Shown: piece after piece, positions 8,492 to 56,476 of the stretch | Position numbering within the stretch: the first letter of the stretch is position 1 | Layout: each line of letters begins with the position of its first letter | From: Sipunculus nudus | Taxonomy: Eukaryota > Annelida > Sipuncula > Golfingiida > Sipunculidae | Length of the DNA stretch: 64,000 nucleotides | Direction of reading: 5' to 3' | Assembly: GCA_026874595.1 (NCBI GenBank) | Contig: CM049307.1 | Location: 20,313,079-20,377,078, forward strand | The notes under the pieces: model-generated | Database searches by the model: none | What the model was told of the DNA's origin: nothing | Seen by the model: the letters and a program-made list of their open reading frames with translations, nothing else | Position numbers and translations under genes: made by a program

Positions 8492-10232
8492 GAATACGGG
8501 TAGTCAACAAGCGACTACGTGTATCTGCCAAAATCAGAGTAGGACGGGTGAAGTGAGGCATGGATTGAGTGGCAAGGGAAATAGAGTTAGATGTGTTACA
8601 TATTAGAATGGATCTCAGCCATATATACATGATTGTATGTGGGGCTACCTGTTATTTAGAGGAGAAACTATCCAAGATGTATACACATGCAAAATTTCAG
8701 GTGGAAAAGTCAAACCACTGCAGAGATATGAGTGATTTTATCATACAGCAGTCAAACAGATGGACGCTGTGCAAAAATTGCTGCAGGTGGCACCACCATT
8801 TTTGTGTATGTTATTAAACTATCCAAGGGCTACATTTGTGTCAATTATTTTTCCTGATTGGTCAAACGAGTCCGGAGATAAAAGCATTAATGTCTGCAGC
8901 GTGAACGTGAATGAAGCTGGCGCCACCTGTCATAAAATCAAGAAAGCTATCCAGGATGTATACGCATGCCGAATTAAAGGTAATTCGGTCAAACCACAAT
9001 AGAAATATGAGTGATTTAACCCAAGGCAGACAAACAGATGGACACTGTGTGAAAATGGCTGCAGATGGCGCCACCATTTTTGTGTAAGTTATAAAGCTAT
9101 CCAAGGGCTACATTTGTGTAAATTTTTTTTCCTAATTGGTCAAACGAGTCCGGAGATATAAGCATTAATGTCTGCAGCGTGAACGTGAATGAAGTTTGCA
9201 CCACCTGTCATAAAATCAAGAAAGCTATCCAGGATGTATACGCATGCCAAATTACAGGTAATTTGGTCAAACCACTGCAGAGATATGAGTAATTTTAACC
9301 CAAGGCAGACAAACAGATGGACGCTGTGCAAAAATGGCTATAGGTGGCGCCACCATTTTTGTGTATATGTTATAAAGCTATCCAAGAGCTACATTTGTGT
9401 AAAATTTTTTTCCTGATTGGTTGAACGAGCATGGAGATATAAGCATGGATGTCTACAGCATGAAAGTGAATGTAGGTGGCGCCACCTGTCATAAAATCAA
9501 GAAAGGTATGCGGGATGTATACGCATGCTGAATTTCAAGAAATTTTGTCAAACCACTGCAGAGATAGGAGTGATTTTAACCCAAGGCAGACAAACAGATG
9601 GACGCTGTGCAAAAATGGCTGCAGGTGGCGCCACCATTTTTGTATATGTTATACAGCTATTCAAGGGCTACATTTGTGTAAATTTTTTTCCCTGATTGGT
9701 CAAACGGTTCCTGAGATATGAGCTTGGATGTCTGCAGCATTAACAGGAATGTAGGTGGCGCCACCTGTCATAAAATCAAGAAAGCTATCTAGGATGTATA
9801 CGTGTGCCGAATTTTAGGTGAATTAGTCAAACCACTGCAGAGATATGAGTGATTTTAACCCAAGGCAGATGAACAGATAGAAACTGTGCAAACATGGTTG
9901 CAGGTGGCGCCACCTTTTTTTGTGTATGTTATAAAGCTATCCAAGGGCTACATTTGTGTAAAATTTTTTCCTGATCAGTCAAACGGTTCCTGAGATATGT
10001 GGGTTTATGTGTGGAAACAGATGCACAAACGGACGCTGGGCAGAGAGGAAAGGTCAGAGGTCAAGGCCACTTGGTTAGGCACCAGTTCACATGTGACCCG
10101 ATAATTTGTGTAAGTTTCGGAAAAATCTGTCCAGTATTCTCAGAGGAGTTCTCCGGAAACGAACGCCGCGGCGGCAGGGGAACCCGGTCAAAAACATAGT
10201 ATCTGCAAAACTTCGGTTTTGGTGGATACAAT
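8492..10232 (+). mobile_element. F1 element copy A (hairpin-ended, tandem core, full length)
   Basis: The 5' end GAATACGGGTAGTC is followed by an imperfect short hairpin (arms around an ACAAG loop) and the box GTATCTGCCAAAA. The 3' end is a CGG-rich tract, ACATAGTATCTGC, and then TTTTGGTGGATACAAT (10217-10232), the complement of the box within a terminal hairpin. The body holds tandem units of about 280 bp, each with two GGTGGCGCCACC palindromes. Perfect copies start at 9343, 9475, 9624, 9754 and 9903; decayed ones sit near 8786, 8916, 9064 and 9190. The spacing alternates between about 131 and 149 bp, so the unit is a dimer of ~140 bp monomers. Open frames of 60-80 codons inside are by-products of the repeats. 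No transposase or Rep/helicase is present, so it is non-autonomous. Confidence 0.85.
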
Positions 10233-10665
10233 AAATGCCATTTAAAGGGGGCTTCGGCTTTGTCTGACCCCCCTTTACAATGCTGGCAAAATTCAATGGT
10301 CCTGTGCTTATTTCAAGAATTGCTGAATATTTTACTATTGCGTATATTTTTAAAACTTTAACAAATAGGTTCTCTGATCACCAGAACTAGATAGATAGCT
10401 GTGAAGATAAAGCCACTTGAAACTCAGAATTTAGACATAGCAGCTCCTTCAGACATGTTCTTTCCTCTTAGATGAAATTTTTATAATTCATTTCGGTCCT
10501 TTAAATGTGAACATATAACAGAGTTTGGCATTTTCTTCTTTAACTTAAGCAATGACGGCTGTCTTGCATCATCATGTCTGCACTGAAAATATTAAAACTT
10601 CATTTATATCCACCAACTGTTTTCATAACAGCTCAACTCTCTTAACATTATTAGAATATTACCAA
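10233..10665. other. Unique spacer between two F1 copies
   Basis: About 430 bp of AT-rich sequence with no repeat or coding signal that I can see. Confidence 0.5.
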
Positions 10666-10667
10666 CT

Positions 10668-11791
10668 AGAATACAGGTAGTCAACAAGCGACTACGTGTA
10701 TCCATCAAAATCAGAGTAGGACGGGTGAAGTGAGGCATGGATTGAGTGTCAAGGGGAAAAAGAGTTAGATGTGTTACATATTAGCATGGATGGCTGCCAC
10801 GTTAACATGATTGAAGGTGGCACCACCTGTTATTTGAAGAAGACTATCCAAAATGTATACAAATGCAAAATTTTAGGTGGATAAATCAAACCACTGCCAA
10901 GATATGAGTGATTTTATCCCACAGCAGACAAACAGATGGACGCTGTGAAAAAATGGTTGCAGGTGGTGCAACTAGTTTCGTGTATAATAAAGAGCTATGC
11001 GAGATCTAAACACGTGCAAATGTTCATGAAGTTACTTCAAACCAGTCCAGAGATATTAGCATGGGTGTCTGCAGCATGAACGTGAATGTAGTGGCACCAC
11101 CTGTCATAAAATCAAGAAAGCTATCCAGGATGTATGAGCATGCCAAATTTCAGGTGAATTAGTCAAATCACTGCAGAGATATGAGTGAATTTAACCCAAG
11201 GTTGACGAACAGATTGATTCTATGTGAAAATGGTTGCACGTGGCACCACCAGTTTCATGTATGATAAAGAGCTATGCAAGATCTAAATACATACAAAATA
11301 TCAGGAAGATACTTCAAACCAGTTCAGAGATATTAGCATGGATGTCTGCGGCGTGAACATGAATGGAGGTAGCGCCACCTGTCATAAAATCTGCATGCAG
11401 ATATATGAGTGATTTTAACCAAGGCAGATGAACAGATGGACGCTGTGCAAAATGGTTGCAGGTGGAGCTACTATTTTTTGTTTATTTTATAAAGCTAGTC
11501 AAGGGCTACATTTGTACAAATTTTTTTTCCTGATTGGTCAAACGGTTCCTGAGATATGTGGGTTTTAGTGTGGAAACAGACACACAAATGGACGCTGGGC
11601 AGAGAGGAAAGGTCAGAAGTCAACACAAATTGGTTAGACACCAGTTCATATGTGACCCAATAATTGGTGTTAGTTTTGGAAAAATCAGTCCAGTAGTCTC
11701 AGAGGAGTTCTCCGGACACGAAGGCGGCGGCCGCGGCGGCGGAACCTGGTAAAAAACATAATATCACAAAACTTTGCTTTGGCGGATAAAA
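10668..11791 (+). mobile_element. F1 element copy B (shorter)
   Basis: Begins CTAGAATACAGGTAG, with the 5' hairpin arms, then GTATCCATCAAAA. Fewer and more decayed core units than copy A: palindromes appear as GGTGGCACCACC, GTGGCACCACC and GGTAGCGCCACC. Ends with the CGG-rich tract (11720-11743) and TTTGGCGGATAAAAA, so the terminal GGATAC is mutated. Same orientation as copy A, 436 bp downstream, with different flanks, so this is an independent insertion or a deletion derivative. No coding capacity. Confidence 0.8.
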
Positions 11792-11936
11792 ACATTGCAT
11801 TGAGACAAGTCAGTGCAACTTCAACCTGCTTTGACTGGGATGAATTTCCATGGGCTGACTTAGACCAATGGATACACCGGCAGAGTTTGTCATTTAGATG
11901 GCGCTGAATCAAACCCATGTGAAATTTCCCAAAATG

Positions 11937-12530
11937 TCAAAATCCCTCAGTATTTATGGGAAAATACAGAAAATCCCTCCATATGACATACCTGGCAAAC
12001 ACATGAAGACCAATAATTGGCATTTCTTTGGCTTGCAAGGCCACCATGGTGTGGTGTGACAAAGATGTAGTACCAACGTCAATTATAATATACAGGTACA
12101 TGTCGTCTCCCTGATATATATGAGTTGAACTTCTCTGGACACAGTCCTTACCTATTTTACAAAACAGCTGGTATACTTTTGTAGAAGAGCCAAAGGGTAA
12201 AGAGGTTAAAGGTGGGTCTTGGAATGTAATATATGTGGTCAAGTCAATGTGATAGGCATCTGGCACTTCAATGAACCAAATGCCAATATGAGCACGGCTT
12301 GTTAGTAACTCTAACCCAAATAAAATGAGCGTCTGCACGCTGGATAGACGTGTAATTAAGTTAAACGTAAACAACAAAAAAAAGTTTAATCTGACGTTAA
12401 AAGATTTGATTATCATGACATTTCTGGTCTGCACATCATGATCATTAAATCTAAAATAAGGCCTCGGTATTTCCTCCACAAGTTCTGACTCAGCTGAGTG
12501 TCGGCAGTTTGTACAGTTTTAAACCATACC
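11937..12530 (-). CDS. Long stop-free frame, probable exon or relic of unknown protein
   Basis: On the minus strand one frame stays open for about 198 codons, from after a TAA near 12531 to a TGA at 11937. In sequence this AT-rich a run of that length is unexpected by chance, making this the strongest coding signal in the window. It reads as ordinary protein rather than low complexity: EEIPRPYFRFNDHD near the start, a hydrophobic stretch (FFLLFTFNLITRLSSVQTLI), then IGIWFIEVPDAYHIDL and GDDMYLYIIIDVGTTSL. A good splice donor, CCAG|GTATGT, lies at about 11993, so a real exon may stop there, after GLHVFAR, rather than at the TGA. A pyrimidine-rich acceptor (CTATCCAG) is at about 12340, so the exon may be shorter at the 5' side as well. 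The apparent start is GTG, so the frame is a segment and not a complete gene. I do not recognise the family. Confidence 0.45.
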
Positions 12531-14018: not shown

Positions 14019-14020
<2 letters not shown>

Positions 14021-14073: not shown

Positions 14074-14077
<4 letters not shown>

Positions 14078-17930: not shown

Positions 17931-17931
17931 T

Positions 17932-21360: not shown

Positions 21361-22540
21361 TTGTATCCGCCAAAATAGAGTTTTGCGGATACTATGTTTT
21401 CAGCTGCACGCCGCCGCCGCCACGTAGGTGTCCGGAGAACTCCTCCGTAACCGCTGGGCAGAATTTTACGAAACCCGGGATTATGTTCAGGTCACATGTG
21501 AACTGCTGCGCCCCGATTTTGTTTTGACCTCCGACCTTTCCTCTGCGCTCTGCGTCCGTTTGTGCGTCTGTTTCCACACATAAACCCACATATCTCGGGA
21601 ACTGTTTGACGGATCAGGAAAATTTTTTTGCACAAATGTAGCCCTTGGAGGGGCTTTATAACATACACAAAAAATGGTGGCGCCACCTGCAACCATGTTT
21701 GCACGGTGTCCATCTGTTCGTCTGCCTTGGGTTAAAATCACTCATATCTCTGCAGTGATTTGACTAATTCACCTGAAATTTGGCATGCGTATACATCCTG
21801 GATAGCTTTTCTGATTTTATGACAGGTGGCGCCACCTACATTCACGTTTACCCTGCAGACATCCAAGCTCATATCTCGGGAATGGTTTGACCGATTGGGC
21901 CAAAATTTTGCAGGTGTATAGATCTCACATAGCTCTTTATCATACGCAAAATTGGTGGCGCCACCTGCAGCCATTTTTGCACAGCTCCCACCTGTTTGTC
22001 TGCCATGGGATAAAATCATTCATATCTCGGCAGTGGTTTGACATATCTGCCTAAAATTTTGCAGGTTTATACATCCCCAACAGCTCTCTTGATTTTATGA
22101 CAGGTGGCGCCACCTGCATTCTAGTTTATGCAGCAGACATCCAAGCTCATATCTTGGGAACCGTTTGACCGATTGGGCCAAAGTTTTGCATGTGTACAGT
22201 TCTCACATAGCTCTTTTTCATACGCAAAACTGGTGGCGCCACCTTCAACCATTTTTGCACAGCGTCCATCTGTTTGTCTGCCACGGGCTAAAATCACTCA
22301 TAAACATATAGTGGTTTGACTTATCTGCCTCAAATTTTGCATATGTATACAACTTGGACGGCTTTCTGGATTTTGTGGTAGGTAGCGCAACCTACATACA
22401 CCATTTGGCTGCAGACATCCATGCTAATATGCAACACTTCACTCTATTTCCCCTTGCCACTCAATCCATGACTCACTTCACCCGTTCCACTCTGATTTAG
22501 GCTAATACACGTAGTCGCTTGTCGACTACCCGTATTCTAG
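21361..22540 (-). mobile_element. F1 element copy C (minus strand)
   Basis: The left edge is the 3' end in reverse: TTGTATCCGCCAAAATAGAG followed by TTTTGCGGATAC, which fold into the terminal hairpin; then a CGCC-rich tract. The right edge is the 5' end in reverse, GTAGTCGCTTGTCGACTAC (perfect 7 bp arms) then CCGTATTCTAG. Five perfect GGTGGCGCCACC copies start at 21676, 21825, 21954, 22103 and 22232, spaced 149, 129, 149 and 129 bp, the same alternation as in copy A. Open frames of up to 93 codons in it are repeat by-products. Confidence 0.87.
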
Positions 22541-25035: not shown

Positions 25036-27684
25036 AAACAAGGGACCTATGGGTCACGGTGCTCAGCTGTTATATATGATAAAAAAATATGATTTAGATA
25101 TGATTCACGTGCTGGTTTTGTGTGGTAATGAATATAAGCTGTATTATGAGTTGTTGTTGTTTAGCTTATGTATGATTTTGATAGTATCTTTGGAGACAGG
25201 GAAGAGGATTGATTTCATTTATTTTATTAACAAATGGAGTACTACTGTCACACAGATTTTGACTTGGCCATATAACTTATAAGCAGAACATATAATATAA
25301 GAGTTTAACTATTAATTAAAAAAATTACAAATATTGTCCCAAATATAATTTTTATTAAAAATAATAAGAGAATTTTATGATTTTTTAAAATAAAATATAA
25401 CTGAAATGATTATTAAAATAATATTAAAGAATATATTCATGAATGCATTCATGAATACATTTTGAAAGTATTTGCACTGGTATTCATATACTTTCATTTT
25501 TACCTGAATTCCCGTTCTTTATGCAAGAAATTTTATAATGGAGTACATATTCATATTCGTATTTAAATACAATTGCAAATTATTTGCACCATGTCGGGTA
25601 TTTATTCAGTTTTCACCAAACAATGATGTTGAGAATCCAGAATATACAAAATTAACACATTTAAATAATGATCATAAGTACCTGGTTTTATGGCTTTTAT
25701 TTATATTTAAAAAATAAATGTAATATATTCATTTGGACTAATTTCACATCAATGTACACACTAGACACAGTAGGAATCTAGATTAATATTATCAACTGCA
25801 TCTTTGTCTATCATTAACTTCCTTCATATGATCCCCAATCATTAGTAATGAATAATATGATTTACTTTTTTATCATTAAAATTGAACTGAAAAATCCATA
25901 GGTGACTGCGTGGTTTCATTTGGAATACATGACGTTCTATCCATCGATACAAGATTCTTATATCATCAGTAACTGCAAGTTAATTTCCTGTTATTATAAA
26001 CTAACAAATTCCTTTTCTATTTTTCTTTAATTTGTTATTAAAAACCAATAAAAATTTATTAATTAATGTTTATTGTTATGTTGTTGGTAAAAACTACTAG
26101 ATGAGTTGGGGTGGACACCTGGATCAACTGTGGCTGGCCATTATATAATAAGCTGCCTGGAGCCCCAGTTTATGCCTCGCCTCAAGCATACATAATTTGC
26201 TGAAAGTTCAACAAGGTCAACATACAGGTGATTCAAGAGGGGCTGGAGAGGGCCAAGGTCTAACATGGTCTCATAGAAACATTAACAAAAGCTACAATAT
26301 TTGGCCAATTTCTTTCAACTTCTAAACTAAACAGCTGAAATCCTTATGTGTGCATGACATGAAAATTATACCAACAGTGCTCACAGGAAACAAACGTGCC
26401 ATGGTCAAAGTTGAGCAAAATTTAAGGTACAAATTTTATATTTATACTAATAACTTATAAAATTTGAAAAATTCAGAACTAATTTTGGGTATTCAATTGA
26501 ATCTTGATTAAATAATGTTACATCCCTGACAAAAAAATCTCTAGCTTCAGCAATCTCCTTGTTAAGGAAGTAAATATATTTCTTGATTTTTTACAAAGTG
26601 CATTATGTTTGGGCCCATAACTTAAAACAATTACGCAATACTGACATCATTTCTGGCATGTGCATAGAGAATGTATAGAAAAATATGTATATTATATATG
26701 ATTAAAGTCAGATCAGTTGTTTTGATATTAGGCAGTCTTGAAGTGTAACAATGGGTTTTTAATGGAAAAATTAAGTTTTTCATTAATATCCCGAAGGTAT
26801 TAAGTCCTAGTGACCAAATTCTTGGCATGGTAGGGAATTTTGGAGACATCTAATTGTATGCCAAATTTTAGGAACTGAGAGCTGAAGCTGGGGAGCTGAT
26901 CTATAGCTCTTGCAAACTGCATAACACTAGCTTGATGTAAACAATATGTTACATGGTGTTTGAAAACTTGATTAAAATCTACAGTTTTTGATCAACTGGT
27001 TTCAAATTTTTGGTGTTAACAGACAAAATGATAACAAAAACATGCTGTGAAAATTAAATCCACAGTACTTACAGGAAAAAAACATGCCATGGTCAAAGTT
27101 GGGCTAAATTTAAGGTACCAATTTTTTATTATGTTAATATTTTAAAAAATTTAAAAGATTTTGATCTAATTTTGGGTATACAATTTAATTTTGATTAATT
27201 AAAGTTATATTACTGGAAAAAAGTCCATAGCTTTAACATTTTTTGTGTTAAGTGATCAAATATCTTTCCTGATTTTTTACAAAATGAATTATGTTTGGGC
27301 CCATAACTTTTTTAAATTATATAATACAGACATAATTTCTGGCATGTACATAGGAACTATATAGAGAAATATTTATGGTAAATATGAGGAAAAACAGATG
27401 AGTCGTTTTGATATTAGGCAGTCCTGAAGTGTGAAAATAGGTTTTTAATAAAAAATTGAGGTTATTCCTTAATTTCTCAAAGGAACGAAGTCACAAAGAC
27501 CCAGTTTTCGGCTTGGTAGGAGATCTTGGGGACATCTAACATTATGCCGAATTTTGGATTCCTAGGTCTTACGGTTTCAAAACATGCCACATCTACAGAC
27601 GGACAGACGGACGGCCCGACAGACGGACGACGGACAATGGACCACGACTATAGCTCAGATGACATATAGTCAGCTGAGCTAAAA
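25036..27684 (+). mobile_element. F3 element, intact 2.65 kb copy
   Basis: The 5' end AAACAAGG leads into the short hairpin GACC-TATG-GGTC (25044-25055) and the box GCTCAGCTG (25061-25069). The 3' end is an (ACAG/ACGG)n tract near 27597-27634, then TATAGCTCAGATGAC and CAGCTGAGC (27671-27679), the exact complement of the box, followed by TAAAA. Within the right half are two diverged tandem units of about 690 bp: CCATGGTCAAAGTTG recurs at 26399 and 27088, and TTTGGGCCCATAAC at about 26608 and 27295. The short open frame at 25049-25282 has a counterpart in the other copy, but the DNA around it is equally conserved, so it is not evidence of coding. This copy supplies the empty sites for both insertions in the 50.7 kb copy. 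Confidence 0.85.
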
Positions 27685-29417: not shown

Positions 29418-31897
29418 CAAAAAACAAGATATTTCTTGGCACCACAGGTGCCATAGTATCCCCAGACAATTAAGCCCCCCACCCTCCCCCCCAGCCTCAA
29501 AGAATAGGATCCCATCTTGAATTCAGATGCAGAGACTGACACTTGGCAAGTCACCATGGTTTCTTATAAGCATGGGCATATTTAAGGTAAAGGTCACTCT
29601 CATAGGAGAGGTCATGATCCAAAATGAAATATATCTCATTCTGTAAACCATGTCTATAAACATGATATGAAAGAAATCTGTCCATTTGTTTTCAACTTCT
29701 CATGCTTACAGTGCTGTGAAGTGGCAACGGTGGGGTATTACAAGGTGCGAAAGCAAGAAAACGACACAAGGTGGTGCCACCTGTATTCTGCAGAAGACAA
29801 AACAATCCAAGATTTTAAAAAAAAATTTATTTAAAAATTAAAATAAAAAGAATTTTTTTTAACTTAAATATATATATATGCATGATATGAAAGAAATCTG
29901 TCCTTTAGTTTTCAATTTATCATGCTCACTGTGCTGTCAAGTGGCAATGGTAGGGTATTAACAGGTGCAAAATCAGGAAAATGACACAAGGTGGCGCCAC
30001 CTGTATTATGTCAAAATTAAAATAATTTAAGATTTAAAAAGAAAACTTTTAATTTAAAAAAAAATAATTGTTTTTTAATTTAATGTTTTAAATTTAAAAT
30101 CCAAGACCTTTGTCAATTTAATTTTGGGATCAATCCATGCTTTCTTTATATGGAGACATTTCGGAGACATTTAAGGTTTTGTAAGGTTTTCCCCAAATAT
30201 GGAAATATTCAAGGTCAAGGTCACTAACATAGTCAAGGTTATGACTTTTAATTTAAATATACCTCATTCCATACTATCCAAGATTTAAAACAAAAAAATT
30301 TAATTTAATCTTAATTTAATTTTAAATTTAAATTTAAATATACCTCAAGGAGCAATAATGGAGGTTTTCAAAAGCGCAAAAAAAAAAATAAAAAACAAGA
30401 AAAGGACAACAGATGGCAGATATTTGTTGTTTTCATTTAAGAATGTGAGACAAATTTTCACAAAATATAGGAATATTCAAGGTGAAGGCAATTCTCATGG
30501 GATAGGTTATGTTAAAATAGAAATATATTCATTAAATGATGTATGATAATGTTATACATGTGTGGAGCAACTTGCCTCAGAATATTATATAGAAAAGGAG
30601 AAAGAAAGAGGAAGAGAAGGATGTGAGAGGATTTCAGAGAGATGGAGACATCTGATAATGGTTAGTGTAAGCGTGTAACAGGGTGCTGATAATTATCTGT
30701 AACAAGGAGGACAGAGCTTGTACTAATTTTTACCTTACTATCCCTCATCATTAATACTAAATACCACATTAATGATCCAATCACCAAAACTAATTTGAAA
30801 TGTATGGCCTTTCATTCCATTCCCCAAGCCTGGTTTGGTGACTGTACCTCAAATTCTTACAAAGTTATTCCATTTAAACATCATTTTAGCAAGAAAACAA
30901 CATAAGGTGGCGCCACCTGTCTTCTGCAGAAAACAATGCTATCAAAGATCTTATGTCAATTTGATTTTTGGACCAATCCATGCATCCCTCAGTGAGATAT
31001 TTAAGTTAACATCATTTCAGCGTTATCGCCTCTGTGACCTTGAAAAATGCATCAAGGTCATCCATATTCAAACTTGGCCTAGCCCTTGATAAGATGCATC
31101 AAACTATAGGTTTGGCGACTGTACCACAAATTCTTTTTGAGTTATTGCCCTAATATCATTTTAGCATAATCGCTGCTGTAACCTTGGAAAAATGCATCAA
31201 GGTCATCCATATTCTAACTTGACCTAGCCACCTGTCTTCTGCAAACAACAAAGCTATCCAAGTTCTTCAGTCAATTTGATTTTTGGATCATTCCATGTAT
31301 CCCTTACTGAGATATTAAAGATTTTGTGTGAATTTCACCAAATATGGGAATATTCAAGGTCAAGGCCACTCTCATAGGAAAAGTCATGACCCCAATTTAA
31401 ATAAACATAATCCCATAACCCATATCTATGTATATGCATAATGTAAAAGAAATCTGTTCATTAGTTTTTGACTTATAATGCTTACAGTACTGTCAAGTGG
31501 CAATTTGGGGGGTATTAAAAGGCAAGAAAACAAGTAAAGAATAATAGGTGGCGCCACCAGTTTCTGGAAGATGACAACCCTATCAATGATCTTTGATCAA
31601 CTTGATTTTGGGATCAATCCATGCAAGATTTCTTGAGATATTTAAGAATTTGTGTGATTTTCCTGAACATTGGACCTATTCAAGGTCAAGGACACTCTTC
31701 CAATAAAGGCCATGACCTCATTTCAAATAGGTGTTGTCCTCTCACCCATTTCAATACATATACCAAGTTTTGTCAAGATTAGTGAAATATGTTTTAAGTT
31801 ATCGCGCCAACAAGATTTATATGCAGCGGCAGCGGCGGCGGCGGGGGGACCGTCATGAAAACATAGTATTCCCCCCGACTTTGTCTGGGGATACAAT
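29418..31897 (+). mobile_element. F2 element, long copy
   Basis: The 5' end carries the hairpin TGGCACC-ACA-GGTGCCA (29437-29453) and, two bases later, the box GTATCCCCAGACAA (29456-29469). The 3' end has a GGCGGC-rich tract (31824-31845), CATAGTATTCCCCCC and TTGTCTGGGGATAC (31881-31894), a perfect 14 bp complement of the box, then AAT. The arrangement and the ACATAGTATCC...GGATACAAT closing are homologous to F1, but the box and core differ. The core has repeated units recognised by AAGAAATCTGTCC, CAAGTGGCAA, GGTGGCGCCACC (29990, 30906 and 31547 perfect) and TTCAAGGTCAAGG. No coding capacity seen. Confidence 0.82.
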
Positions 31898-35148: not shown

Positions 35149-37328
35149 ATGCCCCCGCCACAAAGTGGCCGGGGCATATAGTTTTACCCATGTCCATCCT
35201 TCCGTCCTTCCGCATTCCGTCATTCCAAAATCAAACAGTTGTACGGACTTATTTTCGCAATGCCTGCAGATATTGGCCTGATTTTTGGTGTGTGGACAGA
35301 TAATGACCAGTTACAGATCGACTTCGCGTTTCGGCCCAGTTGACCTATTTTTGACTGTTTTACTGCTTCTAAACTTAGAAAATTTCATGCAAAATATAAA
35401 TTTTCATGACAAATACATATGTACGGACTTTTTTTCGCAATGCCTGCAGATTCTGGCCTGATTTTTGGTGTGTGGGCAGATAATGACCAGTTACAGATCG
35501 AGTTTGTGTTTGGGCCCCGTTGACCTACTTTTGACCATTTTACGGCTCCTAAACTTAGAAAATTTCATGAAAAATAGAAATTTTCATGACAAATACACAT
35601 GTACAGCCTTTTTTTCGCAATGCCTGCAGATATTGGCCTGATTTTTGGTGTGTACGTAGATAATGACCAGATATAGATCGAGTTCGCGTTTCGTCCCGGT
35701 TGACCTACTTTTGGCCATTTAACGTTTCCTTAACCTAGAAAATTTCATGAAAAATAGAAATTTTCATGACAAATACACATGTACAGCCTTTTTTTCGCAA
35801 TGCCTGCAGATATTGGCCTGATTTTTGGTGTGTGGGCAGATAATGACCAGTTACAGATCGAGTTTGCGTTTCGTCACAGTTGACCTACTTTTGATTGTTT
35901 TACGGCTCCTTAACATAGAAAATTTCATGAAAAATATAAATTTTCATGACAAATGTACATGTACAGCTGTTTTAGCCCTCAGCTCATAGGCTGATAGGCT
36001 ATTGTCGTCACCCAAGCTGTCCGTCTCTCCGTCCGTCCGTCTGTCTGTCTGACGTCCGTCCGTCTGCGTCTGTTAACTTTTACCTTGAAAGCAGGATTTC
36101 TCTAAAAGAATTCACCCTTGGAATTTTATTTCATCAGTGAAGATGTATATCGATAAAATCTCAGTCAAGTTCGAAGATGGGTGACCTTGACCCATTTTTC
36201 TACATTTTAGAGCTGATTATAGAAATACACTCAGAAGCTTACATCTCAGGAACCATTGTGTGGATTTTCACAAAACTTACTATGATAATTGGGACTGATG
36301 GTCTGTACTTGCTGCACAATTTTGGTGGCGCCACCTGCAATTTCTGATTTTTTAATCAATTTTATCGGATTTTTCAATTTTGGCCTTGTGAGCAGGATAT
36401 CTCGAAAGGATTCACCGTTGGAATTTTATTTCATCAGTGAAGATGTATATCAACAAAATCTTGGTCAAGTGCAAACATGGGTGACCTTGACCTATTTTTC
36501 TTTGTTTTAGAGCTGATTATACAAAAACACTCAGAAGCTTATATCTCAGGAACCATTGTGTGGATTTTCACAAAACTTACTATGATCATTTGGAATGATG
36601 GTCTTTGCGTGCTGCACAATTTTGGTGGCACTACCTACAATTTCTGATTTTTTAATGAATTTTTATCAGATTTTTCAATTTTGGCCTTTTGTGCAGGATA
36701 TCTCCAAAGGTATTCAACACAGGAACTTCATTTCTTCAGTGCTAATGCATGATATTTACAAAATTTTGGTCAAGTTCAAAGATGGGTGATCTTGACCTAC
36801 TTTTCAAGGTCACAGAGCTTAGTATAGAAAAAAACTTAGGAGCTTATTTCTCAGGAAGCATTTGGTGGATTGTTATGAAACATGGTACATACCACTCCAA
36901 TTTAAATTTATAACTGATTATCAGCTTTTGCTAATATTCTAGTTTTGCAATGCAATGCTCACAGATACTAGCTTAATGTTTGGTCTGTTGGTGCATAATG
37001 ACCACTTACAGATCAAGTTCACGTTTCGTCCCAGTTGACTTATTTTTGACCATATGACAAATCTTGAACATAGAAAATTTCATGAAAGACAGAAATTTTT
37101 ATGAAAATGCACGTATGGACTTTTTTTTCACAATGCCTGCAGATACTGGCCTGATTTTTGGTGTGTTGCTTGATAAAGACCCGTTACAGATGGAGTTTGC
37201 ATTTTGCCCTTGTTGACCTACTTTTGACCATATCACACTTCCTGAACTTAAAATTTTTTTTACAAAATTTAACAAATATTTCTAATTTGCCCCAGGCGGG
37301 GGCATTCATGTCGTTCCAACACATCCAG
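35149..37328 (-). mobile_element. F4 element on minus strand, split by a nested insertion
   Basis: The left edge (3' end of the element) is ATGCCCCCGCCAC-AAA-GTGGCCGGGGCAT (35149-35177), a long hairpin, then a CCTTCCGT-type microsatellite. Core units of exactly 180 bp follow; TGCCTGCAGA recurs at 35261, 35441, 35621 and 35801. The array breaks near 35976 where another element (F5) is inserted and resumes near 36945 with two more decayed units (to about 37255). The right edge in reverse is CTGGATGTGTTGGAACGACAT then GAATGCCCCCGCC, the 5' hairpin and box. Units near the 3' end are clean and those near the 5' end decayed. Non-coding. Confidence 0.83.
35977..36905 (-). mobile_element. F5 element with 300 bp units, nested in F4
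   Basis: At the left, reading in reverse, the closing TAGCC...GGCTAAAA hairpin is preceded by a (GGAC/AGAC)n tract (36019-36065), the same sort of 3' end as F3. The body has three units of 300 bp: GAATTTTATTTCATCAGTGA recurs at 36121 and 36421, with a decayed version near 36723. One perfect GGTGGCGCCACC (36324-36335) and one decayed copy lie at the equivalent site of the next unit. The phrase ATCTCAGGAACCATTGTGTG recalls TATCTCGGGAACCGTTTGAC in F1. I could not define the 5' end, so it may be truncated. Confidence 0.65.
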
Positions 37329-38470: not shown

Positions 38471-41279
38471 TTTTAGCTGCATTAATAACTAGCACAGTTT
38501 TATTAATTAATAATAACAGCAAACATAAACATCTTTGGAAATTATGCAATAAGAATTCCAACAACTGGCATTTTTATTATTTGGACTATATTATATTAAT
38601 GACAGGTAAATATGATATTTAACTATTGCCATATTTTTATACTCTTATTATGAAGAAAGATATGTCATCCTGATAACTAAACCCCTTGCAAACTGGTGTC
38701 AGAAAAATTTACTTTTATTAAATGTGCTTTTAATAATTTATTGAGTTTAAGAGTTGAAATTAAAAAAAGGATAAAAACTTAGATCAACCAAGCAAGACTC
38801 AAAAACTTAAGATACATGTTCATATTCATCAGAAATGGATCTGTGTGATTTTTTTTGTATTATGAAAGGTTGCATATGAAAATCAGAAAGGCACAATCTT
38901 TAAAAAAATTGTAAAAAATGTTAGAAACTCCTTCAAGCAGAACCAAATCTTGCAGGTCAGCAGCCCATAGGATACAATTGGAATAAAAAAAAACTAAAAA
39001 CATGAAAAATCTGATATTCAGCCAAAGATGACCAAGCTCATACTGATGTGGAGAACTACAATACAATTTTTGTATCAATAAGCAGTGGATATCTGTGTAG
39101 CATAAGTGTGGGGGTGGGTTGGTAGGGGAATTAAGGGGGTGACAGAATGGTGGTCATCACATGTCATGTGAAAAGTAAGGTAAAACCAAAAATTACTACA
39201 CAAATAAAAATCACAATGCATGACCAAGATCTGAATGGGGTTAGGAAAAGCCAGTCATTTTAGTTAATACTGATGAGTGATGGTCTTTTTAGATAGTTCC
39301 ACATGTGAAAAATTTACCAATGAACACACTCCGACACAGGCAGAAACTGAGACAAACAAATAGCTGGAGCTGATGACCATGCATCCTAACCTGCAGTAGG
39401 ATGAAAAGATACAACTGTCAATTTCATTCATACCCTTATCTACATATAAAGATTAATTTCATTTCAATGAACATATATATGTATTTTTTTATGCACAAAT
39501 TACACATATGTGTTTATCAATTACAATTAATAGCATTTTTTCATCAGGATCTTATTCAATTTAGTGCTATTACTTACAAGCAGTTTTTGTCACTTGTTTT
39601 ATATAGAAGACAAGCTCTTGGAAAGAAATTGTGGCCTTAATTTAATTTGTTAATTAAGAACAAAATGTGAGCAGGACAAATCCAAGAATCACTGGTTTGA
39701 ATTACTTTTGAATATCATATATAAAAATATATATAATATATTACAAATATATATATATATACATGTATATATATATACAAAATATATATTCTTGACTGCA
39801 CTCTCCGCTTGCTATATAATATGTCAACTTATAAATAAGGAAAACTAAAGTGGATTATGTTCTAGGTTAAGGTAAAAAGGTTCTGGTGTCAACTAAATTC
39901 TAATCTTAGATTTCTTTTCTATTGCTAATTCCCTTGGATAACCATTGTGTGCACAAAAAAAGGTAAAATAATAGCTTATTCTTAAGCATTTTAGTGGATC
40001 AATGCAATTAACTGTTTTAGAATCACAAACTTATGTGAGTTAATATCACTCTGAATAAAATGAGTGAACCAATAAAACCAACAGCATTAACTATTTTCCC
40101 AAAGTGAATTAAAAACTTATACTGCCTTATGCTGGCCTGATGGTTCTGGGATACCTGGCTAAAATAAAATAATATACGACATCCTTTCTTCTGTTACAAT
40201 TCAATAAAATTATCTTTCTGTGGAAACAGCTAGCCCGGCAGACTCCTGAGCCAGGATACCTCATGTTTTAGGTATAATTGGATCTGCCGGGACCAGGAAT
40301 GACTCCTGTGATCATTAAAGCAACGTCTAGGTACTCAAAGCCGTGAACACAAAACTCAACAGGCAGAAATCCATATTAACAGTAATGCTTGGCATAATGG
40401 AACCAAGTGTGGCCATGGCATGATGGTTACTGGAGTATACAGATGAACAGGAAGGACATGGCAAACAATGGAAGCGCCCGGGTCTGTGTGCCGCTTTCTA
40501 CACAAGGCCTGACTTCTCACTCTCTACAGTACAAGCTCTGTAATGGGCTGCGGCAGCAGGAGGGCCCTGATTAGCTTCATCTTCTTTGCCAGGATGCAAA
40601 TCTGAGAAATCAGCCCCTTGTTTAAAAATAAACCCTGGAAATAAACAGGAGAAATCAAGACCAAATTCCTATCCTGATTAGTTTGTTACATGATCTCCTG
40701 CTAGTTAACGGTTCTGTTTAGTTTTTGTACAATGTGCAGAAAAGTCGACTAATTCTGATAATGATGAAAACGCTACAGTTCCCATCACATTATAGTATTT
40801 GTGACCCTTTTTCATCATTTCATTACAGCTAATTCTGGTACATTAACCTTTATCTCTAAACCAGTCTTGGTAATGCTCAGCCATTATGTAAAAGGGACTA
40901 ATTTTTCCCAGTTTTGTAAAATTATCTTGTTATAAGCTTCTTAGAATAACATGGTTAACTGATAAACAGAGGACAAAAATTGTTAAAAGTCATTAAATAC
41001 AAGATGAAATCTTAATTTAGCCACCAAGTTTCTATACAGACACATGGTTTTTAGATCATAAAAACTAACAGAAAGCAGACAAAATAACTATCAGCAATTT
41101 ATCAAAGTTATGCTAAACCAGTTCTATCTTTCTTATCATTTGATATGCAACATCCAGAAAACACTAATAGCTTTTAATTTTATAAAATACGCCCTGTTTG
41201 TAATCACATGAGGCAAGAGAATCCCTCTTTATAAGTCAGTTTTATACTAATCCACCAGCCTGTTTATAAAATATCCTAT
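38471..41279. other. Mostly unique DNA; GC-richer block at 40.2-40.6 kb
   Basis: An AT-rich simple stretch lies at 39716-39785. At 40200-40620 the sequence is less AT-rich and repeat-free; on the minus strand, TGATTTCTCAG near 40601 is an acceptor-like site followed by a short open frame (LHPGKEDEANQGPPAAAAHY). It is a possible exon or conserved non-coding block, but too weak to call. Confidence 0.35.
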
Positions 41280-41775
41280 TCCTGGTACTAGAGGGCAGTC
41301 AGTAGAGTGTAAATACCTCCATTACTAATACTAGAGGGCAGTAAGAAGAGTATAAATACAAACTGCATATTTCCATTACTGATACTAGGGGGCTGTCAGT
41401 AGTGTGTAAATACCTCCATTACTGGTCCTAGAGGACAGCAGTATCAGTAGTGTGTAAATACCTCCATTACTGGTCCTAGAGGGCTATCAGTAGTGTGTAA
41501 ATACCTCCATTACTGGTCCTAGAGTGCTATCAGTAGTGTGTAAATACCTCCATTACTGGTCCTACAGGGCTATCAGTAGACTGTAAATACCTCCATAACT
41601 GAAATTAGAAGGCAGTCTGTAGAGTGGAAATCCCTCTATTTCTGGTACTAGAGGACAGTCAGTCGAGCGTAAATACTTACATTTTTGATAATGCAGAGCA
41701 GTTATTAGAGTGTAAAAATCTTTAATACTACTGGTCCTAAAAGGTCAGTAGAGTGTAAATACCTCCATAAGAAGC
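41280..41775. repeat. 43-48 bp minisatellite, about 10 units
   Basis: TACCTCCATTACTGG and CTAGAGGGC with TCAGTAG and GTGTAAA recur. Central units begin at 41411, 41459, 41502, 41545 and 41588, mostly 43 bp apart; outer units have diverged in length and sequence. Confidence 0.93.
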
Positions 41776-44435: not shown

Positions 44436-45519
44436 TAGACCATATATGGGGAATATGAGAGGTCATGATCCAGATTTAAATATACCTCATCCAATAACAT
44501 ATATCTATATATTTGCATAATATGAACAAAATGTGTCCATAAGATTTTTACTTATAAGGCTCAAAAAACAAGAAAAGGACAAACAGTGGTGCCACCCTGT
44601 CTCCCACTGAAGCTAAAACTATCCAAGATCTTTGGTCTATTTTTTTTTTACCAATCCATGCATCCCTATTGGGATATTTGAGAATTTTTGTTTTTCCCAA
44701 ATATAGAAATAGTCAAGGTCAAGGCCACTCCTTTAGTAATGGCCATGACCCCTATTTATATATATACTCCATTCCATAATAGGAATAAATGCATAATAGG
44801 AAAGAAATCTGTCCAATAGTTCTTGACTTATAATGCTCATAGTACTGTCAAGTGGCAATGATGGGGGTATAAATAACAGGAAAGCAAGAAAAGGACAAAA
44901 TGTGGTGCCACCTGTCTTCCACAGACAAAGCTATTCAAGATCTTCAGTCAGTTTTAGTTTGAATCAATCCATGCATCCCTTATTGAGATATTTAAGATTT
45001 TGTGTGATTTTCACCAAATATGGATATTATCAAGGTCAAGGCCACTATCATAAGAAAGGTGATGACCCAAATTTAAAATAAGTCATCCAATAACATATAT
45101 CTATGTATTTGCATAATAGAAAGAAATTTGTCATAGTTTTTTACTTATAATGCTCACAATACTGTAAAGTGGCAATGATCGGGTTATTAAAAGGCACAAA
45201 AACAAGAAAAGGATACATGTGGCACAACCCTGAGTTTCTTGGAAATGGCAATGCTAAGATCTGTGGTCAACTTGATATTTGGATTAATCAATGCAAGATT
45301 TTTTTAGATATTTAAGAATTTGTGTGATTTTTCCCCAAAAGGGACCTATTCAAGGTCAAGGTCATTCCTAGTAAAGCTCATGACCCCATTTAAAATAGAG
45401 TTTGGTAAAGTTCTGTGAATATTTTTTGAGTTAATATCACTCAAACAAGATTTACCTGCGGCGGCGGTGGGGACAGACATAAAACCATAGTATTTGTCGA
45501 CACTGTCTGGGGATACAAT
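44436..45519 (+). mobile_element. F2 element, 5'-truncated copy
   Basis: The core has about three units of roughly 320 bp recognised by AAGAAATCTGTCC, CAAGTGGCAATGAT and AAGGTCAAGGCCAC; the palindromes are decayed (GTGGTGCCACC near 44586 and 44904). The 3' end is intact: GCGGCGGCGG tract, ACCATAGTATTTGTCGAC and TGTCTGGGGATACAAT (ending 45519). The 5' hairpin and box are missing, so the copy is truncated on the left. Confidence 0.78.
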
Positions 45520-50676: not shown

Positions 50677-52778
50677 AAACAAGGGACCTATGGGTCACGG
50701 CGCTCAGCTGTTATATATGATAAAAATTTTGATTTAGAAATGAGGCACATGCTGGTTTTGTGTGGTAATAAATATAAGCTGTATTATGAGTTGTTGTTGT
50801 TTAGCTTATGTATGATTTTGATAGTACCTTTGGAGACAGGGAAGAGGATTGATTTCATTTTTTTTTATTAACAAATGGAGTACTATTGTCACACAGACTT
50901 GACTTGGCCATATAACTTATAAGCAGAATATATAATATAAGAGTTTAACTATTTATTAAAAAAAAATACAAATATTGTCCCAAATATAATTTTTATTAAA
51001 AATAATAAGAGAATCGCATGATTTTTTAAAATGAAATATAACTGAAATGATTATTAAAATAATATTAAAGAATATATTCATGAATGCATTCATGAATACA
51101 TTTTGAAAGTATTTGCACTGGTATTCATATACTTTCAATTTTACCTGAATTCCCATTCTTTATGCAAGAAATTTTATAATGGAGTACATATTCATATTCG
51201 TATTTAAATACAATTGCAAAGTATTCTCACCATGTCTGGTATTTATTCAGTTTTCACCAAACAATGATGTTGAGAATCCAGAATATACAAAATTCACACG
51301 TTTAAATAATGATCATAAGTACCTGGTTTATGGCTTTTATTTATATTAAAAAAAAAATAAATGTAATATATTCATTTTGGACTAATTTCACATCAAAGTA
51401 TGCCCTAGACACAGTAGGAATCTAGATTAATATTATCAACTGCATCTTCGTCTATCATTAATTTCCTTCATATGATCCCTAATGATTAGTAATGAATAAT
51501 ATGATTTACTTTTTATCATTAATACTGAACTGAAAAATACCATAGGTGACTGCATGGTGTTATTTGGAATACGTGACATTCTATCCATCCATACAAGATT
51601 CTTATATCATCAGTAACTGCAAGTTAATTTCCTGTTATTATAAACTAACAAATTCCTTTTCTATTTTTCTTTAATTTTTTATTAAAAACCAATAAAAATT
51701 TATTAATTTATTGTTTATTGTTATGTTGTTGGTTAAAACTACTAGATGAGTTGGGTTGGACACCTGGATCAACTGTGGCTGGTCATAAGCTGCCTTGCTG
51801 CCCCAGTGTATGCCTCCCTCAAGCGTGCATAATTTGCTGAAAGTTCAACAAGGTTAACATACAGGTGACTCAAGAGGGGCTGAAGAAAGCTAAGGTCTGA
51901 CATGGTCTCATAAAAACATTAATAAAATACAATTTTTTGGCCAATTTCTTTCAGCTTTCTAAACTAAAAAGCTGAAATCCTTATGTATGCATGATATGAA
52001 AATTATATCAACAGTGCTCACAGGAAACAAATGTGCCATGGTCAAAGTTGGGCAAAATTTAAGGTACTAATTTTATATTTATACTAATTACTTATAAAAT
52101 TTGAAAAATTCACAACTAATTTTGGGTATTCAATTGAATCTTGATTAAATAATGTTACATCCCTGACAAAAAATCTCTAGCTTCAGCAATCCCCTTGTTA
52201 AGGGAGTAAATATATTTCTTGATTTTTTACAAAGTGCATTATGTTTGGGCCCATAACTTAAAACAATTACGCAGTACTGACATCACTTCAGGCATGTGCA
52301 TAGAGAATGTATAGAAAAATATGTATATTATATATGATTAAAGTCAGATCAGTGGTTTTGATTTTAGGCAGTTTTGAAGTGTATGAATGGGTTTTTAATG
52401 GAAAATGAAGTTTTTCATTAATATCCCGTAGGTATTAAGTCCTAGTGACCATATTCTTGGCATGGTAGGGGATTCTGGAGACATCTAATTGTATGCCAAA
52501 TTTTGGAACTGAGAGCTGAAGCTGGGGAGCTGAGCTCTTGCAAACTGCATAACACTAGCTTGATGTAAACAATATGTTACATGGTGCTTGAAAACTTGAA
52601 GAAAATCTACAGTTTTTGATCAACTGGTTTCAAATTTTTGTTGTTAACAGGCAAAATGCTAACAAAAACATGCTGTGAAAATTAAATCCACAGTACTTTC
52701 AGGAAAAAAAAAACGTGCCATGGTCAAAGTTGGGCAAAATTTAAGGTACCCATTTTTTATTTTTGTTAATATTTTAAA

Positions 52779-54498
52779 CTAGATGTGTCGGAACGACACG
52801 AATGCCCCCGCCTTGGGCAAATTAGAAACATTTGTAAAATTTGGAAAATTTTTTAAGTTCAGGAGGTGTCATATGGTCAAAAGTAGGTCAACAAGGGCAA
52901 AATGCAAACTCGATCTGTAACGGGTCATTATCAAGCAACACACCAAAAATCATGCCAGTATATGCAGGCATTGTGAAAAAAAGTCCATACATGTGCATTT
53001 TCCATAAAAATTTCTGTCTTTCATGAAATTTTTTTATGTTTAGGATCCATAAAACAATCAAAAGTAGGTCAACCAGGATGAAACGCAAACTCGATCTGTA
53101 ACTGTCATTAACTGCCCACACAAAAAAAATCAGGGTGGTATCTGCAGGCATTGAGGAAAAAAAGTCAGTACATATGCATTTGTTATGAAAATTTATATTT
53201 TTCATGAAACTTTCTATGTTCAGGAGCAGTCAAATGGTCAAAAGTAGGTCAACTGAGACAAAACAGGAACTCGATCTGTAACTGGTCATTATCTGCCTAC
53301 ACACCAAAAATCAGGCCCATATCTGCAGGCACTGCGAAAAAAAGTCCATACATGTGCACTTTTTTATGAAATTTTCTATGTGAGAGCACAGCCAAACGGT
53401 CAAAAATAGGTTAACTGGGGCAAAACGCGAACTCCATCTGTAACTGGTCATTATCTGCCAACACACCAAAAATCAGGCCAATATCTGCAGGCACTGAGAA
53501 AAAAAAACCGTACATGTGTTTTTGTCATGAAATTTCATATTTTTCATGAAATTTTCTATGTTCAGGAGCCATAAAACCGTCAAAAGTAGGTCAACCAGGA
53601 GGAAATGTGAACTCGATCTGTAACTGGTCTATATCTGCTCACACACAAAAAATCAGGCCAATATCTGCAGGCATTGCGAAAAAAAGTCTGTACATGTGTA
53701 TCTGTCATGAATATTTCTATTTTTCATGAAATTTTCTAAGTTAAGGAGCCGTAAAACGGTCAAAAGTAGGTCAACCAGGACGAAACGCGAACTCGATCTG
53801 TAACTGGTCTATATCAACTCACACACAAAAAATCAGGCCAATATCTGCAGGCATTGCGAAAAAAAGTCCGTACATGTGTATCTGTCATGAATATTTTTAT
53901 TTTTCATGAAATTTTCTAAGTTTAGGAGCCGTAAAAAAAGTAGGTCAACCAAGACGAAACGCGAACTCGATCTGTAACTGGTCTATATCTGCTCACACAC
54001 AAAAAATCAGGCCAATATCTGCAGGCATTGCGAAAAAAAGTCCGTACATGTGTATCTGTCATGAATATTTCTATTTTTCATGAAATTTTCTAAGTTTAGG
54101 AGCCGTAAAACGGTCAAAAGTAGGTCAACCAGGACGAAACGCGAACTCGATCTGTAACTGGTCTATATCTGCTCACACACCAAAAATCAGGCCAATATCT
54201 GCAGGCATTGCAAAAAAAAGTCCGTACATGTGTATCTGTCATGAATATTTCTATTTCATGAAATTTTCTAAGTTAAGGAGCAGTAAAACGGTCAAAAGTA
54301 GGTCAACCGGGACGAAACGCGAACTCGATCTGTAACTGGTCTATATCTGCCCACACACCAAAAATCAGGCCAATATCTGCAGGCATTGCGAAAAAAAGTC
54401 CGTACAACTGTTTCATTTCGGAATGACAGAATGACGGAATGACGGAATGACGGACATGGGTAAAACTATATGCCCCGGCCACTTTGTGGCGGGGGCAT
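52779..54498 (+). mobile_element. F4 element, plus strand, inside F3
   Basis: The 5' end CTAGAT leads into the hairpin GTGTCG-GAA-CGACAC and the box ATGCCCCCGCC. Nine core units follow: TGCAGGC recurs at about 52963, 53143, 53324, 53486, 53666, 53846, 54020, 54200 and 54378, mostly 180 bp apart. Then an ATGACGGA-type microsatellite (54421-54454) and the 3' hairpin TATGCCCCGGCCAC-TTT-GTGGCGGGGGCAT, whose GGCGGGGGCAT is the exact complement of the box. The last five units are nearly identical and the first ones decayed. Non-coding. Confidence 0.9.
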
Positions 54499-54670
54499 AA
54501 AATTTTAAAAGATTTTGATCTAATTTTGGGTATACAATTTAATTTTGATTAATTAAAGTTATATTACTGGAAAAAAAGTCCATAGCTTTAACTAGTTTTG
54601 TGTTAAGTGATCAAATATTTTTCCTGATTTTTTACGAAATGCATTATGTTTGGGCCCATAACATTTTAAA

Positions 54671-56118
54671 ACTAGAATACGGGTAGTCGACAAGCGACTA
54701 CGTGTATCCGCCAAAATCAGAGAAGGACGGTTGAAGTGAGGCATGGATTGAGTGGCAAGGGGATGTAGAGTTACATGTGTTAAATATTTGAATGGATCTC
54801 TGCCACATAAACATGATTGTAGGTGGCGCCACCTGTTATTTGAACGAGAAACTATCCAAGATATATACACATGCAAAATTTCATGTGGAAAAGTCAAACC
54901 ACTGCAGAGATATGAGTGTTTTTATCCCACAGCAGACAAACAGATGGACGCTGTGCAAAAATGGCTGCAGGTGGTGCCACCATTTTTGTTCATGTTATAA
55001 AGCTATCCAAGGGCTACATTTGTGTAAATTTTTTTTCCTGATTGGTCAAACAGTTCCCGAGATATGAGCTTGGATGTCTGCAGCGTTAACGTGAATGTAG
55101 GTGGCGCCACCTGTCATAGAATCAAGAAAGCATGCCGAATTTTAGGTGAATTAGTCAAACCACTGCAGAGATAGGAGTGATTTTAACCCCAGGCAGATGA
55201 ACAATTGGACACTGTGCAAACATGGTTGCAGGTGGCGCCATCTTTTGTTGTGTATGTTATAAAGCTATCCCAGGGCTACATTTGTGTAAAAATTTTTTCC
55301 GGATCGGTCAAACGGTTCCCGAGATATATGGGTTTATGTGTGGAGCGTTAACGCGAATGTAGGTGGCGCCACCTGTCATAAAATCAAGAAAGCTATCTAG
55401 GATGTACATGCATGTCGATTTTTAGGTGAATTAGTCAAACCACTGCAGAGATATGAGAGATTTTAACCCCAGGCAGATGAACAAATGGACACTGTGCAAA
55501 CATCGTTGCAGGTGGCACCACCTTTTGTTGTGTATGTTATAAAGCTATCCCAGGGCTAAATTTGTGTGAAAATTTTTTCCGGATCGGTCAAACGGTTCCT
55601 GAGATATATGGGTTTATGTGTGGAGCGTTACGTGAATGTAGGTGGCGCCACCTGTCATAAAATCGAGAAAGCTATCTAGGATGTATATGCATGCCGAATT
55701 TTAGGTGAATTAGTCAAACCACTGCAGAGATATGAGTGATTTTAACCCCATGCAGATGAACAGATGGACACTGTGCAAACATGGTTGCAGGTGGCGCCAC
55801 CTTTTGTTGTGTATGTTATAAAGCTATCCCAGGGCTATATTTGTGTAAAAAATTTTTACGGATCGGTCAAACGGTTCCCGAGATATATGGGTTTATGTGT
55901 GGAAACAGACGCACAAACGGACACTGGGCAGAGACAAAAGGTCAGAGGTCAAGGTCACTTGGTTAGGCACCAGTTCACATGTGACCAGATAATTTGTGTA
56001 AGTTTTGGAAAAATCTGTCCAGTAGTCTCAGAGGAGTTCTCCGGAAACGAACGCGGCGGCGGCCGCGGAACCCGGTCAAAAACATAGTATCCGCGAAACT
56101 TCGTTTTGGCGGATACAA
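54671..56118 (+). mobile_element. F1 element copy D, inside F3
   Basis: The 5' end ACTAGAATACGG leads to the perfect hairpin GTAGTCG-ACAAG-CGACTAC (54683-54701) and the box GTATCCGCCAAAA (54704-54716). Perfect GGTGGCGCCACC copies start at 54822, 55100, 55362, 55641 and 55790, with single-base variants between them. The 3' end has a GCGGCGGCGG tract, GTATCCGCGAAAC and TTTTGGCGGATAC (56104-56116), which form the terminal hairpin, then AA. It is the best preserved F1 copy. Its 100-codon open frames translate the repeats and are not genes. Confidence 0.92.
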
Positions 56119-56476
56119 TTATATAATACAGACATAATTTCTGACATGTATATAGGAACTATATAGAGGAAAAATTATGGTAAATATATATGAGGAAAAA
56201 CGGATGAGTGGTTTTGATATTAGGCAGTCCTGAAGTGTGAAAATAGGTTTTTAATAAAAAATTGAGGTTTTCCTTAATTTCTCAAAGGAACGAAGATGCA
56301 AAGACGAGGTTTTCAGCTTGGTAGGAGATCTCGGGGACATCTAACATTATGCCGAATTTTGGATTCCTAGGTCTTACGGTTTCAAAACGTGCCACATCTA
56401 CGGACGGACGGACTGACGACGGACAATGGACCACGACTATAGCTCAGATGACTAATTATAGTCAGCTGAGCTAAAA

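Follow-up and report, generated by a model that had tools for sequence, protein, structure and literature searches.

A 64-kb stretch of the Sipunculus nudus genome (contig CM049307.1 of assembly GCA_026874595.1, positions 20,313,079 to 20,377,078; hereafter the window) carries four repeat families, F1 to F4, each of which has a family-specific sequence box near one end and its complement near the other. With a probability of roughly 0.93, these are families of Helentron-associated interspersed elements (HINEs), i.e., non-autonomous Helentrons, which are rolling-circle transposons of the Helitron2 type. An earlier note on this DNA suggested HINE or pearl-like, Helentron-dependent elements. This is correct for F3 and F4, as elements bearing Rep and helicase carry their ends, and very likely for F1 and F2, for which partners were looked for and are postulated. 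The earlier note described each element as a 5' hairpin, a box, a body of tandem units and a 3' hairpin holding the complement of the box, and proposed that the coupling of the 5' hairpin to a family-specific box may be undescribed. Reversed, this layout is the published DINE-1/HINE/Helitron2 layout. The 5' side of published HINEs consists of a subterminal inverted repeat (subTIR), an adjacent inverted repeat and a microsatellite, and the 3' side of a subTIR and a palindrome (PMC4067079; PMC7492417; these and the other published accounts below are drawn on in part). The supposed 5' hairpin and box correspond to the HINE 3' subTIR and palindrome, and the supposed 3' hairpin to the 5' subTIR with its adjacent inverted repeat. 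The elements had been read on the opposite strand, and the claim of an undescribed layout is not supported, since the part of PMC4067079 used here already places a subTIR and palindrome at the HINE 3' end; a false lead is thereby removed.

In the orientation adopted here, the left part of an element reads TT, the box (5' subTIR) with a loop and inverted repeat, a GC-rich or GTCC-type tract and the tandem core, and the right part reads the box complement (3' subTIR), 2-5 nt, a short palindrome and, after a further 0-9 nt, a terminus that in most cases is CTAG or CTTG, followed by TT. The window elements are given below in window coordinates, and the strand is that of the HINE orientation, opposite to the orientation of the earlier note.

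8489-10229, minus strand: F1a, with 3' terminus 8489-8492, 3' palindrome 8500-8518, 3' subTIR (box) 8521-8533, 279-bp tandem core 8663-9998 and 5' subTIR and inverted-repeat hairpin 10199-10229.
21363-22540, plus strand: F1c, whole element, with 5' subTIR and inverted repeat 21363-21392, 3' palindrome 22511-22529 and CTAG 22537-22540; its right box is degenerate.
54672-56116, minus strand: F1b, nested in F3b, with CTAG side 54672-54675, 3' palindrome 54683-54701, box 54704-54716, core 54892-55903 and 5' subTIR and inverted repeat 56087-56116.
29425-31894, minus strand: F2a, with CTTG side 29425-29428, palindrome 29438-29452, box 29456-29469, a GC-rich tract and 5' subTIR and inverted repeat 31866-31894.
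45503-45516, minus strand: F2c, the 5' subTIR end of a further F2 element, with one mismatch; its right end was not located.
25039-27681, minus strand: F3a, with CTTG side 25039-25042, palindrome 25044-25055, box 25061-25069, ACGG-type tract 27595-27636 and 5' subTIR and inverted repeat 27651-27681.
50680-56473, minus strand: F3b, with CTTG side 50680-50683, palindrome 50685-50696, box 50702-50710 and 5' subTIR and inverted repeat 56440-56473.
35149-37328, plus strand: F4a, with 5' subTIR and inverted repeat 35149-35177, 180-bp array 35240-35973, 300-bp array 36083-36871, box 37295-37305, palindrome 37308-37322 and CCAG terminus 37325-37328.
52779-54498, minus strand: F4b, nested in F3b, with CTAG side 52779-52782, palindrome 52785-52799, box 52802-52812, 180-bp array 52846-54406 and 5' subTIR and inverted repeat 54470-54498.
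1-31, minus strand: F3-type right end, with palindrome GGCCCATGGGCC and box; the element is cut by the window edge.

The F4 element placed at 35149 by the earlier note is present on the strand opposite to the other F4 copy, so that 35149 is its box and inverted-repeat end. F4b and F1b lie within F3b, which must have been inserted before them.

The boxes and complements described previously are confirmed at their stated places, and box matches are far above chance in both window and genome. Within the window, and allowing at most one mismatch, the F1 box has 5 matches (0.05 expected) and the F2 box 3 (0.09 expected), while exact matches number 5 for F3 (0.08 expected) and 4 for F4 (0.00 expected). 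All four families have inverted box pairs, and Tandem Repeats Finder places tandem arrays between most of them, with short units only and no long array in F3a. The window elements have the tandem repeats in the centre, and the tract of microsatellite or GC-rich type, that characterize HINEs. A scan of the window for layout alone, blind to the box, recovered three elements, F1b, F2a and F4b (four rows), and none of the others, compared with 2 pairs in 10 shuffled windows. Hairpins equal to those observed arose in 24 of 5000 shuffles for F1, 40 for F2, 56 for F4 and 58 for the autonomous F3 end, compared with 1214 of 5000 for the window F3 hairpin, which has only 4 bp and taken alone is not above chance. 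The end layout common to the four families is real, and the observation as first made is confirmed in part. No coding capacity was found in the window elements, the sole stop-to-stop frame of at least 170 aa in the window (11940-12518) lying outside them.

Both strands of 1.43 Gb of genome were scanned. The F1 box occurs 13,290 times (21 for a reversed-pattern control), the F2 box 6,092 times (control, 2) and the F4 box 7,835 times (control, 107), and the 31-nt F3 hairpin and box end, at up to three mismatches, 19,746 times (control, 0). Copies were sampled at 20 loci each for F1, F4 and F2, all in the first 14.1 Mb of contig C1, while the F3 copies examined come from the window and from other loci, none of them chosen by its F3 box. 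Box pairs were present at 14 F1, 20 F4 and 10 F2 loci and single boxes at 6, 0 and 9, respectively, together with one F2 array (L055). Sorting of exact boxes from these loci and the window into a palindrome side and a box and inverted-repeat side gave 17 F1, 22 F4 and 15 F2 palindrome-side rows, from which one F1 and three F2 rows, being left ends with eroded inverted repeats, were dropped by eye. The hairpin is kept in 16/16 F1 ends (some with one or two mismatched pairs), in 22/22 F4 ends (L025 lacks one stem base and others have single mismatches) and in 9/12 F2 ends, where L046 has a different hairpin and L048 and L054 have lost theirs. The widespread hairpin loss that the earlier note had named as evidence against its proposal was therefore not seen, most sampled F1, F4 and F2 copies having kept the structure.

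Outside the palindrome, in the orientation of the earlier note, AACTAG is present in 16/16 F1 and 20/22 F4 ends (the others read AACCAG and AACTGG); seven of nine canonical F2 copies have AACTAG and two have AACAAG, as do F3a and F3b of the window. The families largely share this outer CTAG/CTTG-TT terminus, which was absent from the features first listed. At sampled left ends the complementary inverted repeat stands beside the 5' subTIR, with a few cases eroded or missing (L125, L136), and TT lies outside 19/20 F1, 22/22 F4 and 18/19 F2 ends, followed by GTATCC in F1 and F2 and by ATGCC in F4.

Forty further single boxes (20 F1, 20 F4) showed the same end types, apart from two F4 chance hits. 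Unpaired F1 ends were palindrome or box and inverted-repeat ends in a ratio of 4 to 16 among these 20 (L125, one of the 16, lacks the inverted repeat) and 1 to 5 among the six singles of the first sample, and unpaired F2 ends in a ratio of 1 to 8 (n = 9). The 20 F4 singles comprised 9 of each kind and the 2 chance hits. One of the four F1 palindrome ends (L128) has a degraded hairpin, and in L135, an F4 left end, the outer TT is missing. Unpaired ends were considered as a sign of direction and rejected, as the F1 and F2 skew is not general and F4 is balanced. The F1 skew probably comes from a subfamily of F1 whose right box is degenerate. Many of the F1 left ends that stand alone (C1 singles, L112-L131) read CAGAGTTTTGCGGATAC after the box, and the subfamily bearing this sequence may have a degenerate right box like that of F1c in the window.

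At L055 (C1:1407300-1413500), F2 elements lie in a satellite of ~55 bp and are locally multiplied in units of about 2.6-2.8 kb. A trace of rolling-circle replication was considered for this array and rejected: the units repeat, along with the element, the ~55-bp satellite that surrounds it, and two of them agree to ~98% across almost 3 kb, which indicates local duplication.

Insertion sites separate the Helentron-dependent reading from two rivals. A search of 44 joins for empty sites gave 7 with paralogues across the junction, of which 5 could be aligned, three of them F4 and two F1 insertions, with no site from F2 or F3; L010, whose only match was its own locus, and L029, with a mis-set boundary, were left out. 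At all five sites the element lies inside a T-run, target duplication is absent and the net gain is 1-2 letters, which are all T but for a single A where F4b was compared. HINE insertion leaves the target unmodified, with variable numbers of T, in the part of PMC4067079 drawn on here. The inverted boxes at both ends and the small, non-coding size might suggest terminal inverted repeat (TIR) DNA transposons or miniature inverted-repeat transposable elements, with the boxes as transposase-binding terminal repeats. This is scarcely credible given the asymmetric ends, just one of which has a palindrome outside its box, the lack at the five sites of target duplications, whose presence with a TIR family the earlier note had named as a point against its reading, and partners that encode Rep and PIF1. 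A hairpin with CTAG or CTTG, and then T, 0-9 nt beyond it is also like the 3' hairpin and CTRR of canonical Helitrons (Helitron1) in the sections of PMC5148889 and PMC4067079 consulted. The canonical signature of 5'-TC, 3'-CTRR and insertion between A and T is not found here: 5'-TC is absent, CTRR fits only part of the right ends (CTTG is not CTRR) and insertion is into T-runs. The subTIR pair and the endonuclease of the F3 partner likewise make Helitron1 a very improbable source of these elements.

The connection of F3 and F4 with Helentrons comes from their autonomous partners. A PF14214 profile search of the genome gave at least 143 match rows (150 of 195 candidates scored), some of which are two pieces of one gene, and 62 Rep loci were examined, comprising three longer regions and 59 Rep windows placed ~3.9-6.8 kb downstream of Rep. 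F3-type ends occur on the Rep strand in 17/59 Rep windows and on the opposite strand in 3/59 (L083 has both), and F4-type ends in 2/59 and 0/59, respectively; L167, with a further box mismatch, was left out of the end counts. One element, H17 (C17:35625479-35639637, minus strand, 14,159 bp), has the F3 box and inverted repeat (L091) at its left and the F3 box, palindrome and CTTG at its right, and contains a nested F1 copy. Its 2342-aa open frame runs from the box and inverted-repeat end to the palindrome end, towards the end first taken as 5'. The protein, searched in two pieces, matches Helitron_like_N (1.2e-27) and PIF1 (4.2e-23); its C-terminal 250 aa match Exo_endo_phos at 1.2e-5, above the curated cut-off, while a longer piece scores 2.7e-4, below it, and a PDB search with the endonuclease piece gave one weak unrelated match only (E 0.052). 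HIH, Y-Y and GDFN are visible in the translation and presumably carry the meaning these motifs usually have. The predicted domains (Rep, PIF1 helicase and endonuclease) are those of the Helentron set. At L087 and L088 an F4 right end stands beside Rep and equals the F4 HINE end in box, palindrome and CTAG except for the first box base. The F3-type right end at window position 1-31, noted also for L071, resembles right ends downstream of Rep genes (L094, L102, L106), so that an element of Helentron type seems to begin at the left edge of the window and to lie on the minus strand.

A separate Rep/helicase group was noted at L065/L066 (C7:31573500-31587500) and L067/L068, with an OTU domain in H7, open frames that reach 2426 aa (in H13) and a coding part surrounded by tandem repeats; element ends were looked for in H7 and H13 and not found.

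Several observations weigh against the Helentron-dependent reading or its orientation. On the Rep strand, 40 of the 59 Rep windows lack F3 and F4 ends alike; nested HINEs could account for some of the ends that neighbour Rep. The autonomous Helentron that the earlier note sought for each pair of ends was obtained in full for F3, both ends on one element being seen in H17 alone, and for F4 as a right end only, while neither F1 nor F2 ends were found as the own ends of a Rep element in the 62 Rep loci drawn from the at least 143 match rows. One Drosophila Helentron carries a reversed Rep (part of PMC4067079), so that reading-frame direction does not strictly prove which strand moves, and fungal Helitron2 elements are printed with a short hairpin at the 5' end (part of PMC5148889). 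The F2 copies at L055 have a right end without a palindrome, and compensatory changes within families are not clearly above shuffles. This last result excludes the plus strand of F1 L017 (a left end) and F4 L025 (a stem deletion): double changes occur in F1 (L009, L006), F4 (L044), F2 (L047) and F3 (A-T versus G-C), and the observed two-sided changes were reached in 413, 1055, 629 and 98 of 2000 shuffles for F1, F4, F2 and F3, respectively, and the observed paired cells in 81, 1055, 629 and 98.

The differing box and hairpin letters, together with the lack of an identified partner for F1 and F2, could mean that each family converged on hairpin ends from a different class of mobile element. This is highly improbable, given that the CTAG/CTTG-TT terminus is mostly common to the families, that F1 and F4 share a T-run target, that Rep elements are partners of F3 as well as F4 and that cores are related across families. 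The F1b and F2a cores align at E 2.7e-8 and the F2a and F4a cores at E 5.8e-9 over 199 bp, with no match for either pair in shuffled controls, and alignment thus indicates that F1-F2 and F2-F4a cores are homologous. Direct F1-F4a homology was not detected (no match for F1b-F4a; 31.1 bits for F1c-F4a versus 29.7 in shuffled controls), and the F1-F4 link runs through F2. The F3a core has no match to the F1, F2 or F4 cores and matches a 337-bp unit at 1.2e-4. To call the families unrelated, as was first done, is too strong, as some cores are homologous, most ends share a terminus and several cores share the 12-bp palindrome GGTGGCGCCACC.

This palindrome has 111,729 genome copies versus 14 for a reversed control, a contrast that is overstated, as the control has two CpG rather than one and is expected to be rarer. 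It has 20 copies in the window (862, 9343-9903, 21676-22232, 29990-31547, 36324 and 54822-55790). It is found in F1, where each 279-bp unit has two, in F2, in the 300-bp array of F4a and in the 337-bp unit, and the 12 nt flanking it are alike at 1-9/12 positions across cores. Flank windows at least as conserved as the palindrome number 0/76 in one F1 half-unit, 22/76 in the other, 76/76 in F2, 33/76 in F4 and 28/76 in the 337-bp units, a mixed picture as regards selection within families. The palindrome seems somewhat like the CTCF core motif. A literature text search for it turned up one paper, on an unrelated matter, and among the matches listed for the box strings all look unrelated by title.

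Co-variation of box and hairpin, expected by the earlier note, was borne out in part. In the sample the F1 and F4 boxes each go with one hairpin type, whereas the F2 box also occurs with the L046 hairpin and the F3 box with two classes, TGACCC..GGGTCA or TGGCCC..GGGCCA; in F3 the A-T stem goes with CTTG in 18/24 ends and the G-C stem with CTAG or CCAG in 6/24, a link broken by L158. The occurrence of one box with different palindromes, and of different boxes with related ancient core monomers, invites a speculative and rather doubtful proposal: the ends may be exchangeable modules, in which a family-specific box read by a given Rep is combined with a palindrome/CTWG-TT stop common to all lineages, so that the clade would evolve by swapping address, stop and cargo, and GGTGGCGCCACC would be a working site, not a relic. 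If so, it would bind a helper protein or host factor.

For HINEs moved by Helentrons, a simple mechanism can be proposed. The Helentron Rep (HUH, Y2) would nick at the box end, the helicase would strip off one strand, the palindrome with CTWG would act as the stop signal that ends the copy, and the single strand would be integrated at a T-run with no duplication of the target. The box would then be the family address for the matching Rep, and since one kind of machinery would read all families, the layout would be kept while the letters drift by lineage. H17 and the F3 ends offer a concrete enzyme-substrate pair for studying the roles of box, palindrome and CTWG, and the families provide a copy-rich system for the spread of satellite-like monomers. 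Further tandem arrays lie outside F1-F4 in the window at 1210-2858, 41278-41768 and 59096-59598, with units of 68, 43 and 26 bp.

Among known systems, bivalve pearl-like elements, which combine a tandem core with an ACGG-type tetranucleotide tract as in F3, are likened by description only. The Cg_HINE elements of Crassostrea gigas are likened by layout, not box sequence: as in F1-F4, one side has an 11-12 bp subTIR with an adjacent complementary inverted repeat and a short microsatellite, which in several elements is GTCY, GTCC or GTCK, the other has a subTIR and palindrome, satellite-like monomers of mostly 140-180 bp lie between, insertion prefers TT without target-site duplication, and two conserved motifs are common to otherwise different monomers (part of PMC7492417). 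DINE-1, mite HINEs and Helentrons share with F1-F4 the subTIRs, microsatellite, central repeats and 3' stem-loop, and DINE-1 the inverted repeat adjoining the 5' subTIR; HINEs and Helentrons also have a T-rich target, which offers two or more T on either side and is left unmodified, and a Rep/helicase/endonuclease partner (part of PMC4067079). In that source the subTIRs of mite HINEs form palindromes in their own right, at a distance of 38-60 bp from the 3' end, whereas the 3' side of F1-F4 is tighter, at about 22-32 bp, and ends mostly in CTAG or CTTG. Fusarium Helitron2 (FoHeli) resembles F1-F4 in its asymmetric terminal inverted repeat, in the hairpins at both termini of FoHeli1/2 and in a terminal hairpin that has a GAA loop, as in F4; it differs in target sequence and, for FoHeli1/2, in that 38-51 bp separate the inverted repeat from the 3' terminus, and fungal Helitron2 elements differ in the short hairpin listed at the 5' end and in that no endonuclease was found, within the portion of PMC5148889 used. 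The authors of PMC7492417, in the part cited, could not relate Cg_HINE to autonomous Helentrons, whereas F3 and F4 ends stand on Rep elements here, which for these two families answers a question of the kind left open in the oyster work. Within the literature compared, as far as the portions cited extend, what is new is the four families themselves and the autonomous-partner link for F3 and F4.

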